Below are positions 29,594-37,749 of a stretch of DNA of 64,000 nt, piece by piece (position 1 is the first letter of the stretch; each line of letters starts with the position of its first letter). This stretch comes from Acidobacteriota bacterium (GTDB taxonomy: Bacteria; Acidobacteriota; Blastocatellia; Chloracidobacteriales; JADJPF01). The DNA is taken from contig JACQZQ010000121.1 in assembly GCA_016213785.1 (NCBI GenBank), positions 62,001 through 126,000 on the forward strand, read 5' to 3'. Position numbers and translations under genes: made by a program. A model generated the notes under the pieces. It was not told where the DNA came from. It did not search any database and saw only the letters and a list, made by a program, of their open reading frames with translations.

Positions 29594-29641
29594 TTGCTTT
29601 TGGATTGTTTTTAGATTGCCTTTGGATTGCTTTATGCTATT
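29594..29641. repeat. four degenerate 12-base tandem repeats over the rtcA 3' end
   Basis: Units TTGCTTTTGGAT, TTGTTTTTAGAT, TTGCCTTTGGAT and TTGCTTTATGCT follow head to tail. The last ones overlap the rtcA stop codon region. Confidence 0.6.
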
Positions 29642-30648
29642 TCTATTGTTGTAGATAATTTTCCTAGTTGTTTTGTATTAATATTAACTTTTAGAAATTT
29701 CTTTATAATTTCAATATTAGTAGTAGTATGTAAAGAAAGCCCAAAAGTAGTAAACACACCACTACCAGCTAAGGCAAATGGAATAAGGAGTTGATCGGCT
29801 AAATACTCACCAACTGGAACACCTGCGGCTAAATAATGTCTTGCTTCTTTAACTGCTTCATCTGCAACGGCCTCAGCCCTAACTCCTCGCTCACCAAAAG
29901 CAGTAAATATTTCTGTTAAATTTTCACTCTCAAGCTCAATAAAAACTACATTGCCTGGCCCACGAGAATTATTTATTATCTCTTTGTGTAAACAGGACTT
30001 ATCCCAAGACATTCTTTGAGCAATAAAACTTAATTCTCTATCAGCAATCTCTGTTGGAAGAGAAGCAACTAAAGCTCTTGCCCTACGTGAAATAATTTCT
30101 CCTCTTGAAGTAAGTTCAAATCCTAGAAGCTTTTTTACTGGCTTAATATTTACCTTAAACTGCCCTCCACCAGCAGGATAAAACCCTGGCCTAACTAGCT
30201 CTAAAGTAACATTTACTCCCATACGATTAATTTGTTTAAGAAAAGTTTTTTCTAAAAAATCAAAAGGCGGTGCAGCAGGATTATGTGTCCCTCCTTCTAA
30301 AATTAAGTTTGTTGGCCCATCAGCAAGTAGTAAAGCAGGTAAAATTGTTTGTAAAACCAAAGTCGCACTTCCTGCTGTCCCTATTGCAAATGAATAATCT
30401 CCTGCTAAAACTTTTTTAGGAATAAAAGTAAGTTGTTGAGAATTAAGCGATGCTCCTACTACCTCTGCTTGCCCTATTTTAGCCGCAGCATTAATTGCTG
30501 TTAAATGTTGACGCAAAATTCCAGGGCTTTTACGACCACCACGAATTTTCTCTATACGAAAAGCTGTTCCTGTTACTAACGATAAGCCCAAAGAAGTACG
30601 TAAAATTTGACCTCCGCCTTCACCAAAAGAGCCGTCTATTATTAACAT
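29632..30648 (-). CDS. rtcA: RNA 3'-terminal phosphate cyclase RtcA
   Basis: A 338-residue cyclase that uses ATP to convert an RNA 3'-phosphate into a 2',3'-cyclic phosphate, the substrate form that RtcB can join. The opening DGSFGEGGGQILRTSLGLS and RGGRKSPGILRQH bind the substrate. HNPAAPPFDFLEKTF and the C-terminal SLHTTTN carry the histidine that is adenylylated. Length equals the E. coli enzyme. GAGAGG precedes the ATG. It is the last RNA-repair gene of the operon, separated from rtcB by a membrane glycosyltransferase gene. Confidence 0.93.
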   Translation of the reverse strand: MLIIDGSFGEGGGQILRTSLGLSLVTGTAFRIEKIRGGRKSPGILRQHLTAINAAAKIGQAEVVGASLNSQQLTFIPKKVLAGDYSFAIGTAGSATLVLQTILPALLLADGPTNLILEGGTHNPAAPPFDFLEKTFLKQINRMGVNVTLELVRPGFYPAGGGQFKVNIKPVKKLLGFELTSRGEIISRRARALVASLPTEIADRELSFIAQRMSWDKSCLHKEIINNSRGPGNVVFIELESENLTEIFTAFGERGVRAEAVADEAVKEARHYLAAGVPVGEYLADQLLIPFALAGSGVFTTFGLSLHTTTNIEIIKKFLKVNINTKQLGKLSTTIEIA

Positions 30649-31866: not shown

Positions 31867-33093
31867 TTATCCTTTTACACAAACAATTTGTTTTAGAGTA
31901 TGCACAATATCTACTAGGTCTGATTGAGCAGCCATTACGCTATCAATATCTTTATAAGCACCTGGAGTTTCATCAATTACATCTACATCTTTACGGCATT
32001 CAATTCCACTAGTAGCAGTAATGTGGTCTTCTAGTGTAAATCTACGCTTTGCTTCTGTTCGTGACATTGCGCGGCCTGCACCATGACTACAAGAATGGAA
32101 ACTTTCTGGATTACCTTTTCCCCTCACAATATAGGATCTTGCACCCATACTACCAGGAATAATACCCATATCACCTAATCTAGCTCTAACTGCACCTTTA
32201 CGAGTTATAAACACATTTTCGCCATAATGATTTTCAATAGCAACATAGTTATGATGACAATGGATTGCTTCTTCTCCAAGCTCAAATGGTGGTAGGCTTG
32301 AAACATTTTTTATAGCATTAACTATATTCTCCATCATTAATTTGCGGTTCCACATAGCAAAATCTTGTGCCCAATGAACGGCTTTAACATAATCATCAAA
32401 ATTTTCGCTACCCTCTGGTAAATAAGCAAGGTCTTGATCTGGCAAATTAATAAACCATCTTTTCATATCAGCTTTAGCTAAATCAATAAAATAACTACCA
32501 ATTCTATTTCCTACACCACGAGAACCGCTGTGGAGCATAAACCATACTTGATCATTTTCATCTAAACAAACTTCAATAAAATGATTACCTGTCCCTAAAG
32601 TTCCTAAATGGTTTAAGTGATTGCCCCTATCAAGTTTAGGATGTTTAGTAATAATTTCATCATAACCAATTTTTATTTTTCCCCAAACTTCCAAGTGAGT
32701 TTTAGGAGGATTAGCCCAAGCACCACGATCATTTCTACCTCCATTATCAGTACGACCATGAGGCACAGCCTTTTCAATTGCAGCACGAATTTCAGCTAAA
32801 CTATCTGGTAAATCAGTTGCCTTAAGCGTAGTAGCTATAGCACTCATACCACATCCAATATCTACACCTACAGCAGAAGGTATTATGGCTTTTTTCGTAG
32901 GAATAACACTACCTACAGTTGCTCCTAAACCAGAATGAACATCAGGCATTGCAGCTATCCATTTATAAATAAAAGGCATAGTTGCAGCATTTAATAATTG
33001 TTTTTTAGCCTCATCTTCCATTGCTACACCATCAATCCAAGCTTTTACTGGTAATCCTTTATCATCTTTTAGTACTTGATATTTTTTTTCCAT
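31867..33093 (-). CDS. rtcB: RNA-splicing ligase RtcB
   Basis: A 408-residue GTP- and Mn-dependent ligase that joins RNA 2',3'-cyclic phosphate or 3'-phosphate ends to 5'-hydroxyls. Metal ligands are visible in VGVDIGCGM (Asp78, Cys81), GTGNHFIE, MLHSGSRGVGN and HCHHNYV. The histidine that becomes guanylylated lies in HSCSHGAGRAMSR. Size and motifs match the E. coli enzyme. TAAGGAG lies 8 bases before the ATG. It follows the Y RNA cluster in the same transcription direction. No archease gene is present in the window. Confidence 0.95.
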   Translation of the reverse strand: MEKKYQVLKDDKGLPVKAWIDGVAMEDEAKKQLLNAATMPFIYKWIAAMPDVHSGLGATVGSVIPTKKAIIPSAVGVDIGCGMSAIATTLKATDLPDSLAEIRAAIEKAVPHGRTDNGGRNDRGAWANPPKTHLEVWGKIKIGYDEIITKHPKLDRGNHLNHLGTLGTGNHFIEVCLDENDQVWFMLHSGSRGVGNRIGSYFIDLAKADMKRWFINLPDQDLAYLPEGSENFDDYVKAVHWAQDFAMWNRKLMMENIVNAIKNVSSLPPFELGEEAIHCHHNYVAIENHYGENVFITRKGAVRARLGDMGIIPGSMGARSYIVRGKGNPESFHSCSHGAGRAMSRTEAKRRFTLEDHITATSGIECRKDVDVIDETPGAYKDIDSVMAAQSDLVDIVHTLKQIVCVKG

Positions 33094-33131
33094 TCTAGGA
33101 ATCTCCTTAAGCCAATATGGGGATAAAAATT

Positions 33132-33319
33132 AGGGCTGACAAAACTCAATATCCATAAAAACCCAAAACATTATCTCTACTTTTACAACAAAATCAACCT
33201 GTCAAAAATTCATCACGTGAATTTTATAAATTTTAGATAAATATTTGTGTTAGTACAAATTATTGAAAACGAGACATTGTAGATAGATTAAAATGTAGTC
33301 CCAGTTGGCATTCAGCCCT
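33132..33319 (-). ncRNA. Y RNA-like element 1, long AT-rich variant
   Basis: Read leftward, the RNA would begin AGGGCTGAATGCCAACTGGG, contain GGGACTACATT, and end TTTTGTCAGCCCT. The termini form an 8-bp stem (AGGGCTGA/TCAGCCCT) and keep the ATGC and TGTC bulge boxes of the other copies. The second stem is weaker (GGGAC/GTCTC). The centre is about 120 bases of AT-rich sequence with no tRNA-like or rRNA-like part that I can see. This is the least certain member. Confidence 0.6.
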
Positions 33320-33363
33320 ATTAATTAATTATCTTATGTAGGATTTAGTACTTTCCTAAATTA

Positions 33364-33567
33364 TATGGCGACAAGGATTTAGAGAAACAGCGTCCTTACC
33401 AAATTACTTTGGCAGTGGACACGCATTTAGAATCTTTAAGTCAAAGACCAAAAGACCCCAAAGAACCTTTTTATCAGTTCTTGTAATGCTTCGCTAACTG
33501 GATCACTCCAGGTTTGCTACCTTAGGCTCGTTATAGTTACGTGTAGTTCCTCAGAGCATTCGCCATA
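33364..33567 (-). ncRNA. Y RNA-like element 2 carrying a 23S rRNA helix 69-71 mimic
   Basis: 204 bases. The terminal stem TATGGCGA/TCGCCATA is perfect. The bulge boxes ATGC and TTGTC, stem 2 (GAGGAAC/GTTTCTC) and the TACA box match the other copies. Directly after that box comes a segment (33513-33540) equal to the conserved 23S rRNA sequence around E. coli 1909-1937 at 25 of 28 positions: GTAACTATAACG, then CCTAAGGTAGC, then AA. Next are the hairpins CTGGA-GTGA-TCCAG and CCAAA-GTAA-TTTGG, both with GNRA loops, and AAGAAC/GTTCTT. The rRNA sequence is compared from memory. Confidence 0.8.
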
Positions 33568-33584
33568 ATTTAGTTTTTTTATTG

Positions 33585-33713
33585 GTAACGACAAAGGGCA
33601 AAGAAACATTTTTTCGCCGCTCTACCACTGAGCTACGACCCCACAAACGGGGCCGGTAGGGATCGAACCTACGACAAACGACTTAACATGTAGTTCCTTT
33701 AAGCATTCGTTAC
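33585..33713 (-). ncRNA. Y RNA-like element 3 (YrlA type) with a circularly permuted tRNA mimic
   Basis: 129 bases, terminal stem GTAACGA/TCGTTAC, stem 2 AAGGAAC/GTTTCTT, box TACATG. The insert runs in the order T arm, acceptor stem, D arm. The T arm is GTAGG-TTCGATC-CCTAC (33656-33672). The acceptor stem CGGCCCC/GGGGTCG is 7 bp and closed by a GTTTGT loop. The D arm is GCTC-AGTGGTA-GAGC (33619-33633). The Ro-binding stem takes the place of the anticodon arm. This is the published YrlA architecture. Confidence 0.88.
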
Positions 33714-33739
33714 AAAACTTTTCAAAAATCACAAAATTT

Positions 33740-33886
33740 ATTGTGGCGACAAGAGTTTGAGAAACGTTTTTTCGTCGTTCTACCATTAAACTATAGCCCC
33801 CATAAGTTATTGGTGGAGACTAGCAGGAATCGAACCCGCATCTACGGCGTTGCAAGCATGTAGTTCCTCAAGGCATTCGCCACAAT
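33740..33886 (-). ncRNA. Y RNA-like element 4 (YrlA type), permuted tRNA mimic with internal ACCA
   Basis: 147 bases with a perfect 10-bp terminal stem ATTGTGGCGA/TCGCCACAAT, stem 2 GAGGAAC/GTTTCTC and box TACATG. The insert order is T arm GCGGG-TTCGATT-CCTGC (33823-33839), then an 8-bp acceptor stem TAGTCTCC/GGGGGCTA, then D arm GTTT-AATGGTA-GAAC (33777-33791). The 13-base loop closing the acceptor stem starts ACCA, exactly where a mature tRNA carries N73-CCA. This looks like a former tRNA whose ends were joined and which was reopened at the anticodon. Confidence 0.88.
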
Positions 33887-33922
33887 ATAAACTATTAAAG
33901 AACTTGGCTTTAACCTGAATAA

Positions 33923-33986
33923 AAGCTGACAAGAAATGATTAAGACTCTTTACATTGGCGATGTAGTCCTAATCAGCATTCAGCTT
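33923..33986 (-). ncRNA. Y RNA-like element 5, minimal form
   Basis: 64 bases. Terminal stem AAGCTGA/TCAGCTT, bulge boxes ATGCT and TTTCTTGTC, then a 10-bp second stem GATTAGGACT/AGTCTTAATC with one wobble, capped by ACAT-CGCCA-ATGT. It has no inserted module, so it consists of the Ro-binding part alone. Confidence 0.82.
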
Positions 33987-34047
33987 AAATATAATTCAAT
34001 AAACTACAGATTTATAAAAACTAATAAACTAATTTAATATTTAGGCT

Positions 34048-34109
34048 TAGGCTGACAAGAAATCGCTAAGACACAAGTTTCATATGTAGTCCTAACTGCA
34101 TTCAGCCTA
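34048..34109 (-). ncRNA. Y RNA-like element 6, minimal form
   Basis: 62 bases. Terminal stem TAGGCTGA/TCAGCCTA, boxes ATGC and TTTCTTGTC, second stem GTTAGGAC/GTCTTAGC and a TACATATGAAACTT loop. It is closely related to element 5 in the bulge and box sequences, but the stems differ by paired changes, which supports selection on structure. Confidence 0.82.
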
Positions 34110-34140
34110 GGTATTTATCTAGATATTTTTTTAAAAAATT

Positions 34141-34213
34141 GGTAACGACAAGTGGGTGAGAAACGCCATGTCATTTCTGACTACCATATGTAGTTCCTCT
34201 AACATTCGTTACC
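34141..34213 (-). ncRNA. Y RNA-like element 7, short form with a GAAA hairpin
   Basis: 73 bases, the first Y-like RNA after rsr. Terminal stem GGTAACGA/TCGTTACC, bulge boxes ATG and TTGTC, second stem GAGGAAC/GTTTCTC, box TACATA, and an extra small hairpin GTCA-GAAA-TGAC with a GNRA loop. Its stem 2 sequence matches elements 2 and 4. Confidence 0.83.
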
Positions 34214-34230
34214 TTATCTTTTTAGATCGG

Positions 34231-34305: not shown

Positions 34306-35862
34306 CTATATTTCCACCGCTTCGATCACTTTAACCCAATGTTCACCTTGGTTTTGACCATTAGCAAACAAACTTATTACATCAAAAACTTGGTCAGAGA
34401 ATCCACCAATATTCAAAATATCTTGTCTATCTGGTGCTTGAGTAGTTCCATAAGGTTGTATATCGATACAGACTAGTTTTGCATTAGGGTTATTTTGCTT
34501 GAACTTTTGCCACTCTTGCATTGTTGCACTACCACGTCCAGCTTTAGCATCTACCCAAGACTCATTATCTGACACAAAAATCACTAAATCCCCTTTTGCT
34601 CTATTTTTATTTAACATTGCTAAAGGAGCACTACAGTTAGTTCCACCTCCTCCGATAGAGGCAAGTTTACTAGCATTAGTCATTACACTATCACGAGAAT
34701 TAAGTTTTAAGTTTGTTACCACATTACACTCAAAAGGTAGTACTTCAGCATCAGGGTTTTTACGAATTACAGCAGCAGTTACTAAAGCAGCAACATCAAT
34801 ACAACGAACTTTACTAGTAGAACCTTGACGATAACCTGTTACAGGTGAAGACATAGAACCAGAAACATCTGGGCAAATATAGATTTTTCCATCAAATTTA
34901 GGGACATTGGTAATAGCTATTTCCATAGCATCTTGTAGAGCTTCGGTAACAATTTTAGGAACATCACTATTTGTCATTAAATAAGCGCTCATTAGCTGAT
35001 AAGGAAAAGCTTTAGCCTTAGTAATTAATTCAGGATTACGCAATCTATCAGCAATAATTTTATCCATTCCTAAAGACTTAAACACATCATGACGAGCAAA
35101 AGTATTTAAGTTCATTCTAGTCATTTGCCAAGATCCATTACGGGCAATCTCCACCCAATTTTTAGAACTTAGATTTAACATTGTCAACATTTCAAAAGGA
35201 ACTTTAGGCATTTCTTCACTTTTACCAGCCTTAAATGCTTCATATTGTTGAACTAACCCTGGTAATTTAGTTTCATCATATTGACGACCAATCATATAAC
35301 CAAAAAAAGCTTCACGTTCTTTATCTTTTGGCTTAGGGTGAACCATCTTGATAATATCAGCAAAAGAAGGGGTTTGACCTATAGAAGCACGAAATATATT
35401 TTCCTCATTACGGTTTTCAAACCACTCACGAACTAAGCGTTTTGGTAAAGATCCTAGGGATTTACGACCTACAACACCAGATCTAATAATTTGTACAAAA
35501 TTACGTAACATTTTACCATTATCAATTACTCTAGAAAAAACTTTAACTAATAAATCACGGTTTTTTATAGATAAAATTGCACAAAGTAATGCTGGCATAT
35601 CTTTCATAAAACCACGTTCACGTGAATAAAGTGCAAGTTTAGCAATAAATTCTGGCTCGATATTTTGAGACATTTCTAAAATTTTTTCTAATTGGTTTTC
35701 AGCACTTGCATAAAAAGTAGCGTTAAAACAACCTGTCATTGCATATTGAGCTAAAACGTGTTTAGGAGTAAAACTATAAGCGTTTCCGCCTGCTTCATTA
35801 AAAGTATCTGTTTTAGGGATAAAGTTTCCAATAATTGATTGAAATAAACTCTTGTTAGCCAT
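34306..35862 (-). CDS. rsr: Ro60 ortholog, TROVE-domain RNA-binding protein
   Basis: A 518-residue Ro ring protein that binds Y RNAs on its outer surface and threads 3' ends of damaged RNAs through the ring. The N-terminal TROVE/HEAT repeats span about 20-320 (FTPKHVLAQYAMTGCFNATFY). The C-terminal von Willebrand A domain has a complete MIDAS: DVSGS (332-336), the Thr in GGGGTNCSAPL, and SDNES. ATG 35862 is chosen with GGAGG 5 bases upstream; a TTG at 35880 includes the ribosome site and is rejected. It is the first gene behind the sigma-54 promoter. Confidence 0.95.
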   Translation of the reverse strand: MANKSLFQSIIGNFIPKTDTFNEAGGNAYSFTPKHVLAQYAMTGCFNATFYASAENQLEKILEMSQNIEPEFIAKLALYSRERGFMKDMPALLCAILSIKNRDLLVKVFSRVIDNGKMLRNFVQIIRSGVVGRKSLGSLPKRLVREWFENRNEENIFRASIGQTPSFADIIKMVHPKPKDKEREAFFGYMIGRQYDETKLPGLVQQYEAFKAGKSEEMPKVPFEMLTMLNLSSKNWVEIARNGSWQMTRMNLNTFARHDVFKSLGMDKIIADRLRNPELITKAKAFPYQLMSAYLMTNSDVPKIVTEALQDAMEIAITNVPKFDGKIYICPDVSGSMSSPVTGYRQGSTSKVRCIDVAALVTAAVIRKNPDAEVLPFECNVVTNLKLNSRDSVMTNASKLASIGGGGTNCSAPLAMLNKNRAKGDLVIFVSDNESWVDAKAGRGSATMQEWQKFKQNNPNAKLVCIDIQPYGTTQAPDRQDILNIGGFSDQVFDVISLFANGQNQGEHWVKVIEAVEI

Positions 35863-35974
35863 AAATCCTCCTGCAGACAATTATTCCGCTTGTTTGAAAA
35901 ACCAAATAATGTTAAATAAACTTATATATCAGATTAGATTATTTGCTAAAATTTCTTGTTGTACTTATACATAT

Positions 35975-35990
35975 ATCAAACAACGTGCCA
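35975..35990 (-). promoter_or_regulatory. sigma-54 promoter of the rsr-Y RNA-rtcBA operon
   Basis: Read leftward, TGGCAC (-24) and TTGAT (-12) are separated by 5 bases. The consensus is TGGCAC-N5-TTGCW, so only one base of the -12 element differs. The start of transcription would fall near 35963, about 100 bases before rsr. The divergent neighbour rtcR encodes a sigma-54 activator, as expected. Confidence 0.85.
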
Positions 35991-36135: not shown

Positions 36136-37749
36136 ATGACTAATAAAAAATATGTAGTAATAGGATTAGTTGGAACAACGCTAGACAATGGTGCTGGCCC
36201 TGAACGTTGGGAAAAATGGAGACCAACCGTATCACTTTGTAGACATGAAAACTTGATTGTTCATAGACTAGAGTTACTTTATCAAAAAAAATTTAGTTCT
36301 ATAGTAGATGTCTTAGTAGAAGATATTTCAACCGTTTCTCCAGAAACTCACTTAAGGCCAATTCAAATGGAATTTAATGATCCCTGGGATTTTGAAGAGG
36401 TTTATGCCACACTACATGAATTTGCAGGTAACTATGAGTTTAACCCTGAAGAAGAAGAATACCTAGTGCATATTACAACAGGTACACACGTAGTACAGAT
36501 TTGTATGTTTTTATTAACAGAATCTAGGCATTTTCCAGCTAAACTCCTGCAAACTTCACCCCCAAATCGTCATAAGTCAGAGCCAGGAAAATATACAATA
36601 ATTGATTTAGATCTTTCCAAGTATGATGAAATTGCATCACGTTTCCAACAAGAGAAGCGAGAAGGCGTATCATTCTTAAAGTCGGGTATTGAAACTCGTA
36701 ATAAAGAATTTAATAGGCAAATTGAGCGGATTGAACAAGTTGCAATAGCTTCAGAGTCACCTATTTTGCTTATGGGGCCAACTGGTGCAGGTAAATCACA
36801 ACTAGCTAGGCGAATTTATGAATTAAAAAAAGCCCGCCACCGCGTTGTAGGTAAATTTGTAGAAGTTAATTGTGCAACTCTTAGGGGTGATTCTGCAATG
36901 TCAGCACTTTTTGGACATATAAAAGGAGCCTATACTGGTGCAAATAATAGCCGACCTGGGCTACTTCGTACTGCTGATAAGGGTTTACTCTTTTTAGATG
37001 AAATAGGCGAATTAGGTCTAGATGAGCAAGCAATGCTACTTAGGGCTTTAGAAGAGAAAGTTTTTCTACCTCTTGGCTCAGATCAAGAAGTAAGCAGCGA
37101 TTTCCAGTTAATTGCTGGTACTAACCGTGAATTAAATAGTTTTGTAACAGAAGGGAAATTTCGTGAGGATTTACTAGCAAGAATTAATTTATGGACATTT
37201 CGCCTTCCTAGTCTTAAAGAGCGGGTAGAAGATATTGAGCCTAACCTTCACTATGAATTAGAAGCCTATACTCGCCGCACTGGTAATAGAGTAACTGTTA
37301 GTAAAGAAGCTAAAGAATTTTTCTTAAAGTTCGCTACTTCATCAAATGCAAAATGGAGTGGCAATTTTCGTGACCTAAATGCGGCTGTAACCCGTATGAC
37401 AACCTTAGCTTTAGGAGGTCGTATTTCTTTAGAAATTGTAGAGGAAGAAATTGAGCGGCTAAAAGCTACTTGGTATAACCCAAATCAACCTAGCAAAGAA
37501 GAGATGCTTTTAGAATCTTTACTAGGTAAAGAGCAAGCAAATCAAATAGATCGTTTTGATAGAATACAACTCCTAGATGTATTATCTGTATGCAGTCAGG
37601 CTCATACCCTTTCCGAAGCAGGTCGAGAGCTTTTTGCTAGCTCAAGAGAGCAAAAAAAAAATATTAATGATGCTGATAGGCTTAGAAAATATTTAGCTAG
37701 ATTTAACCTACAATGGCAAGATATTAAAAATATTTCTGAAGATATTTAA
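36136..37749 (+). CDS. rtcR: sigma-54-dependent activator RtcR
   Basis: A 537-residue regulator. The N-terminal RtcR-type CARF domain (about 5-180) opens VVIGLVGTTLDNG and has HITTGTHV (112-119), the expected ligand-pocket loop. The AAA+ domain has Walker A GPTGAGKS (214-221), GAYTGA (264-269, the sigma-54 contact loop, a GAFTGA variant) and Walker B LLFLDEIGE. The C-terminus carries a divergent DNA-binding helix-turn-helix (about 470-535). In Salmonella, RtcR is activated by tRNA fragments ending in 2',3'-cyclic phosphate. It is divergent from the operon it should control. Confidence 0.95.
   Translation: MTNKKYVVIGLVGTTLDNGAGPERWEKWRPTVSLCRHENLIVHRLELLYQKKFSSIVDVLVEDISTVSPETHLRPIQMEFNDPWDFEEVYATLHEFAGNYEFNPEEEEYLVHITTGTHVVQICMFLLTESRHFPAKLLQTSPPNRHKSEPGKYTIIDLDLSKYDEIASRFQQEKREGVSFLKSGIETRNKEFNRQIERIEQVAIASESPILLMGPTGAGKSQLARRIYELKKARHRVVGKFVEVNCATLRGDSAMSALFGHIKGAYTGANNSRPGLLRTADKGLLFLDEIGELGLDEQAMLLRALEEKVFLPLGSDQEVSSDFQLIAGTNRELNSFVTEGKFREDLLARINLWTFRLPSLKERVEDIEPNLHYELEAYTRRTGNRVTVSKEAKEFFLKFATSSNAKWSGNFRDLNAAVTRMTTLALGGRISLEIVEEEIERLKATWYNPNQPSKEEMLLESLLGKEQANQIDRFDRIQLLDVLSVCSQAHTLSEAGRELFASSREQKKNINDADRLRKYLARFNLQWQDIKNISEDI

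Follow-up and report, generated by a model that had tools for sequence, protein, structure and literature searches.

A Y RNA encoded in a 64,000-nucleotide stretch of an Acidobacteriota genome (GenBank GCA_016213785.1, contig JACQZQ010000121.1, positions 62,001 to 126,000; hereafter the window) carries a copy of the near-universal 23S ribosomal RNA (rRNA) strand that spans helices 69 to 71 (H69-H71). The RNA is one of seven in an array, is about 206 nucleotides (nt) long and lies on the minus strand (element 2, 33363..33568). Because its rRNA-like module recurs in 17 genomes of a distant group, mostly beside a gene for the Ro protein, sequence comparison indicates that the module is a selected feature, not an accident. 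By analogy with YrlA, a Y RNA with a tRNA-like tip, we consider it probable that this module serves as an effector and docks Ro to a component that ordinarily contacts H69-H71 of 23S rRNA.

The mimic, CGTAACTATAACGAGCCTAAGGTAGCAA (33514..33541, minus strand; H69/H70), matches E. coli 23S rRNA positions 1909-1936 with 25/28 identity, and its best local alignment to 23S rRNA is 1909-1937. When the 64-kb window was shuffled 100 times with dinucleotides preserved, no such match to 23S rRNA occurred, so that none is expected by chance, and the first five members of the family gave local alignment scores to 23S rRNA of 22-29 against a null maximum of 15.5. The mimic begins directly after the Y motif GAATGCTCTGAGGAACTACA, i.e., after the Ro-binding GGAACTACA. 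An earlier sequence-only reading of this DNA had reported the segment, its identity and its place right after the Ro-binding stem, all of which were borne out on the minus strand; only its coordinates, 33513-33540, were one base low. It had also seen no other rRNA nearby, in agreement with the lack of any rRNA gene at the Rfam gathering score in the window, and a search of the genome's assembly found no 23S copy of the mimicked region. Its view that the following stretch loosely resembles the next part of 23S rRNA is weakened, as the resemblance beyond position ~1936 is not significant (p ~0.07), although the hairpin and AGCGA found there are conserved in the family.

Element 2 is classed as a Y RNA, with Ro binding predicted from its motif, stem and neighborhood. 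Its terminal stem has the GAATGC...GGAACTAC / CTTGTCGCC motif, and a Ro60 ortholog is encoded nearby with RtcB downstream. The 5' strand of the Ro-binding stem, ATGGCGAATGCTCTGAGGAACTACA (33542..33566, minus strand), bears a signature present in 155 motif matches at Ro loci, some of which overlap, and it pairs with the 3' strand GTTTCTCTAAATCCTTGTCGCCAT (33365..33388, minus strand). Following the mimic, the hairpin CTGGA-GTGA-TCCAG (33498..33511, minus strand), with a GNRA loop, stands in the place of H71; its conserved 3' flank, TTAGCGAAGC (33488..33497, minus strand), includes the AGCGA kept in the family and provides GC/GC closing pairs. The window copy folds 4.6 standard deviations better than shuffles. 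Element 2 matched no Rfam family, YrlA and YrlB included, and some of its neighbors match below the gathering score; a match to the Rfam library is evidence for the Y RNA class, not its definition. No tRNA-like module with T-arm and D-arm, the mark of YrlA, was found in element 2.

The exact pattern, ACTAC followed by at most 30 bases and AACTATAACGNNCCTAAGG, was scanned across approximately 85,000 species genomes and gave exactly three matches, all in metagenome-assembled genomes of Myxococcota or "Deltaproteobacteria" and all right after the Y-RNA motif GAATG....GGACTAC. Further searches added genomes G416, G345 and G212, with G416 containing an unbroken 29-nt match to 23S rRNA 1908-1936. 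Among 144 relatives of G212, a covariance model built from four members (R1) recovered 12, one of them G212, with scores of 42-79 bits compared with ~33 bits for real 23S rRNA. Carriers total 18 genomes, the window's and 17 from another group (Myxococcota), so the proposal of a Y RNA whose H69-H71-like module is conserved across species is upheld. No genome is common to the sampled sets of 396 genomes from the window's phylum and 318 from the Myxococcota class, and the two groups therefore appear to be different phyla. In 10 of the 12 members of the G212 group the RNA is encoded 170-800 nt downstream of the Ro gene on the same strand, and for one of these Ro genes the vWA_Ro60/TROVE identity was confirmed. 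Where the canonical Y motif is present, the mimic starts right after GGACTACA (6/6 members). Searches of plasmids and phages returned ordinary 23S rRNA or chance matches; two weak plasmid matches were dropped because the query did not include the mimic.

The Ro genes and mimic RNAs of Myxococcota (loci L095-L106, L030, L031 and L038) often sit inside large tRNA islands, as in the order Ro, tRNA-Asn, tRNA-Glu, mimic RNA, tRNA-Arg and more. One island carries an HNH endonuclease (L102, 2602-3069), and the arrangement is reminiscent of tRNA clusters in mycobacteria that contain HNH and GOLLD (PMC9569102).

Aligned members share an H69-like hairpin, a near-invariant CCUAAGGUAGCGA strand, a short GNRA-loop hairpin and AGCGA, in which GC is paired to the GC of GUAGC. 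Sequence identity among 11 loci of the G212 group is 88% in the module compared with 54% on either side. All five pairs of the GNRA hairpin show changes on both sides, and neither its covariation score nor its percentage paired was reached by any of 500 shuffles; the shuffle ignores relatedness, and partners slid by 1-3 columns also score far below. The H69-like hairpin has the loop AACUAUA; its helix has invariant CG/GC pairs without changes on both sides and extends over approximately 4 base pairs (bp) in the G212 clade. L029, L030 and L031 have the same 23S core with longer and different hairpins. Uridines equivalent to the RluD targets 1911, 1915 and 1917 are all present in 14/18 members, with losses at 1917 in L095, at 1915 and 1917 in L100, and at 1911 in L101 and L106. 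The strand after H69 is the most invariant part and is more constrained than the H69 loop. That the UAAGGUAGC strand is near-invariant while the H69 uridines are not strictly kept suggests that this strand is recognized no less than the loop. Similarity to 23S rRNA extending to H72-H73 was not significant in any member, with L077 marginal (p 0.033). A second candidate helix (CGGCR with AAUGYGCCG) beats shuffles, but swapped partners do nearly as well and its covariation was not established. Common descent is favored over repeated capture of 23S sequence because the non-23S hairpin and AGCGA are shared.

YrlA consists of a Ro-binding stem and a tRNA-like tip; modification of the tip by DusA and TruB and its binding to PNPase have been described (PMC8394870). 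In element 2, the place of the tRNA-like module is taken by the module that copies the H69-H71 strand, which is made up of an H69-like loop, CCUAAGGUAGCRA, the GNRA hairpin and AGCGA. By the same analogy, the swapped effector site would hold a partner that normally meets domain IV of 23S rRNA, possibly a factor for rRNA modification or assembly, or the facing ribosomal surface. The Ro ring, with any exonuclease, would thereby be brought to large-subunit RNA, or the factor would be kept from it. RluD, RlmH and TlyA act on H69 and are therefore reasonable candidates; RluD itself is a possible partner that is not specifically supported. Recruitment of an H69 pseudouridine synthase and competition with damaged 23S fragments, the roles suggested in the sequence-only reading, are hypothetical.

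Several observations weigh against this interpretation or limit it. In the window's class, the exact pattern is absent from all 161 other genomes of the 162 scanned, and the covariance model found only real 23S rRNA (~33 bits, an identity that rests on scores equal to those of known 23S rRNA) besides the window copy at 91.8 bits. The H69-like stem in the window copy is limited to 3 bp plus the loop, and several of the 18 copies differ in loop bases or in the closing pair. In the G212 clade the Ro motif GGACTAC cannot be recognized, and we therefore term these RNAs Ro-linked rather than proven Y RNAs. Adjacency to Ro is not universal either: the Ro gene is on another contig in G163 and approximately 98 kb away in G345, and none was found in G162. 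Absence from related genomes had been named as a refutation in the sequence-only reading; this is literally the case within the class, but it is outweighed by the copies in the distant group. Most loci of 21 relatives with Ro-gene matches show Y RNAs, none with a full mimic within 1.5 kb of Ro. A Y RNA of the window's class at L017 (minus strand, 1203) has a partial mimic, ATTAACGTTCCTAAGGTAAG, which may have decayed or be a minimal form; its TAACGTTCCTAAGGTA gave a local score of 14 against a null maximum of 12 in 2000 shuffles, which is suggestive and was not counted.

Alternatively, the module could serve mainly as a substrate for H69-modifying enzymes of the RluD, RlmH or TlyA type, which would modify and stabilize the Y RNA or bring the enzyme to Ro. 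There is precedent in the modification of YrlA by the tRNA enzymes DusA and TruB through mimicry (PMC8394870), and the three uridines equivalent to 1911, 1915 and 1917 are retained in most members. The four members that lack one or two of them, the greater constraint on the following strand and the short stem of the window copy make this explanation unlikely. Slightly less likely still is that the module, within an RNA-repair operon, acts as a decoy for, or competitively inhibits, a toxin or nuclease that attacks the ribosome at H69-H71. The presence of RtcB, RtcA and RtcR in the operon and the location of many members in tRNA islands fit such a role, competitive inhibition of a nuclease has been proposed for YrlA (PMC7790460), and an RNase that cleaves H69, Ribocin, exists; however, according to the paper on Ribocin (PMC13189344), cleavage of bacterial H69 is not known for any nuclease, and no toxin gene was seen beside the inspected loci.

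Covariation of the GNRA hairpin and the replacement of H71 by a different hairpin would also fit a convenient stable fold captured from 23S rRNA and kept for its structure only, with no rRNA partner. The most conserved bases, UAAGGUAGC, nevertheless lie outside the covarying helices, which argues for recognition rather than stability, and we regard the structural explanation as improbable. A non-functional captured fragment, a chance match or an assembly join is highly improbable: the module is rare and absent from close relatives, but none is expected by chance, 18 genomes carry it, the hairpin covaries, 23S flanks are lacking and G164 also has its own intact 23S rRNA. A 23S pseudogene or fragment was rejected since the window copy has no significant 23S similarity outside the module, and an assembly join with a real 23S gene, raised in the sequence-only reading, is implausible and was set aside because the flanks are intact Y RNA within one 127-kb contig. 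An antisense rRNA guide was likewise discarded, as the best stretch of element 2 against 23S rRNA (~2053-2075) was equaled by 10/500 shuffles and is not shared by relatives.

Docking of Ro through the H69-H71 copy can be extended to a broader and distinctly speculative model, to which we give a low probability. Y RNAs would be interchangeable adaptors with tips that copy different translation RNAs, and the H69-H71 tip would dock where native H69-H71 docks, either on assembling or damaged 50S subunits or on the 30S face to which it bridges, bringing Ro and an exonuclease to faulty ribosomes in a form of mimicry-based ribosome quality control.

The Y RNAs of the array have GAATGC-N4-8-GGACTAC and a matching 3' strand in common, and all are encoded on the minus strand. 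Element 1 (33131..33320) was recognized as a Y RNA by its Y motif and terminal stem; it is long (190 nt) and has a different, AT-rich insert. Elements 3 (33583..33715) and 4 (33741..33885) are YrlA-like tRNA mimics with RF02553 scores of 56.8 and 50.8 bits, both under the gathering score of 69. Element 4 appears to be a permuted tRNA-like Y RNA in which the CTCCACCA stretch is kept and joined to the tRNA 5' half; it resembles a permuted tRNA or transfer-messenger RNA (tmRNA), and its match to Rfam tmRNA_permuted is weak. Element 5 (33921..33988) is short and YrlB-like (RF02565, 31.7 bits, under the gathering score), and elements 6 (34047..34110) and 7 (34140..34214) are short RNAs with the Y motif and stem. 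A third recurring Y RNA insert was observed in the window's class, composed of a GCGC stem, two hairpins, the first of which has a loop resembling NGNGAUAA, and GCGC, at L013 3409, L016 1307, L018 1347, L019 3396 (minus), L020 1339, L021 1363 (minus), L022 3347, L023 1330 and L024 1249 (minus). It has no significant rRNA match and could be another mimic. A further conserved insert, GTAGCAATTTGAGTAATGCGCCGG, is common to Y RNAs at L018 3807 and L023 3415 (both plus strand).

The minus-strand order is Ro, seven Y RNAs, RtcB, a membrane protein and RtcA, with RtcR divergent, i.e., an rsr-Y RNA-rtcB operon. The Ro60 ortholog (rsr; 34306..35880, minus strand) matches PF25045 vWA_Ro60 (2.7e-19) and TROVE (9.3e-07), the RtcB RNA ligase (31867..33093, minus strand) PF01139 (1.2e-129), the RtcA RNA 3'-phosphate cyclase (29632..30648, minus strand) PF01137 (2.2e-75), and RtcR, the sigma-54 activator of the operon (36136..37749, plus strand), PF06956 (5.6e-84). 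Between RtcR and Ro, in front of Ro, lies a sigma-54-like promoter candidate, TGGCACGTTGTTTGAT (35975..35990, minus strand, one mismatch); its location fits a promoter, but it is a consensus match only and such matches occur at chance level across the window.

The function of bacterial Y RNAs, apart from gating or tethering Ro, is a long-standing question. A Y RNA tip that copies a defined central piece of 23S rRNA offers a concrete way to address how Ro is linked to rRNA, and suggests that the mimicry of Y RNA tips covers a set of RNAs and is not confined to tRNA. No report of rRNA mimicry by a Y RNA, or of helix 69 in connection with one, was found in the open literature, with subscription literature mostly outside the scope of the search, and an rRNA-mimic Y RNA is probably new to the literature.

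The Salmonella rsr-yrlBA-rtcBA operon with RtcR has the same gene set and divergent RtcR as the window (PMC7790460); it contains two Y RNAs, whereas the window operon contains seven, one of them carrying the 23S mimic. Compared with 23S helices 69-71, the mimic is near-identical over 1909-1936 and many members have an H69-type hairpin, but it has a short GNRA hairpin for H71, a shortened H69 stem and no rRNA gene context. Deinococcus radiodurans Rsr-Y RNA-PNPase (RYPER) likewise combines a Ro ortholog with a Y RNA and degrades structured RNAs, including rRNA (PMC8394870, PMC7790460); a link to rRNA maturation and decay is reported in PMC8394870, which also cites by title a role for the Deinococcus Ro ortholog in 23S rRNA maturation, and the portion of that paper drawn on here reports no rRNA-mimic module in RYPER. 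YrlA (Rfam RF02553) shares with element 2 the Ro-binding stem, the rsr-rtcB operon and, at the same place, an effector module imitating a translation RNA, the difference being that the module of YrlA copies tRNA and that of element 2 copies 23S H69-H71.
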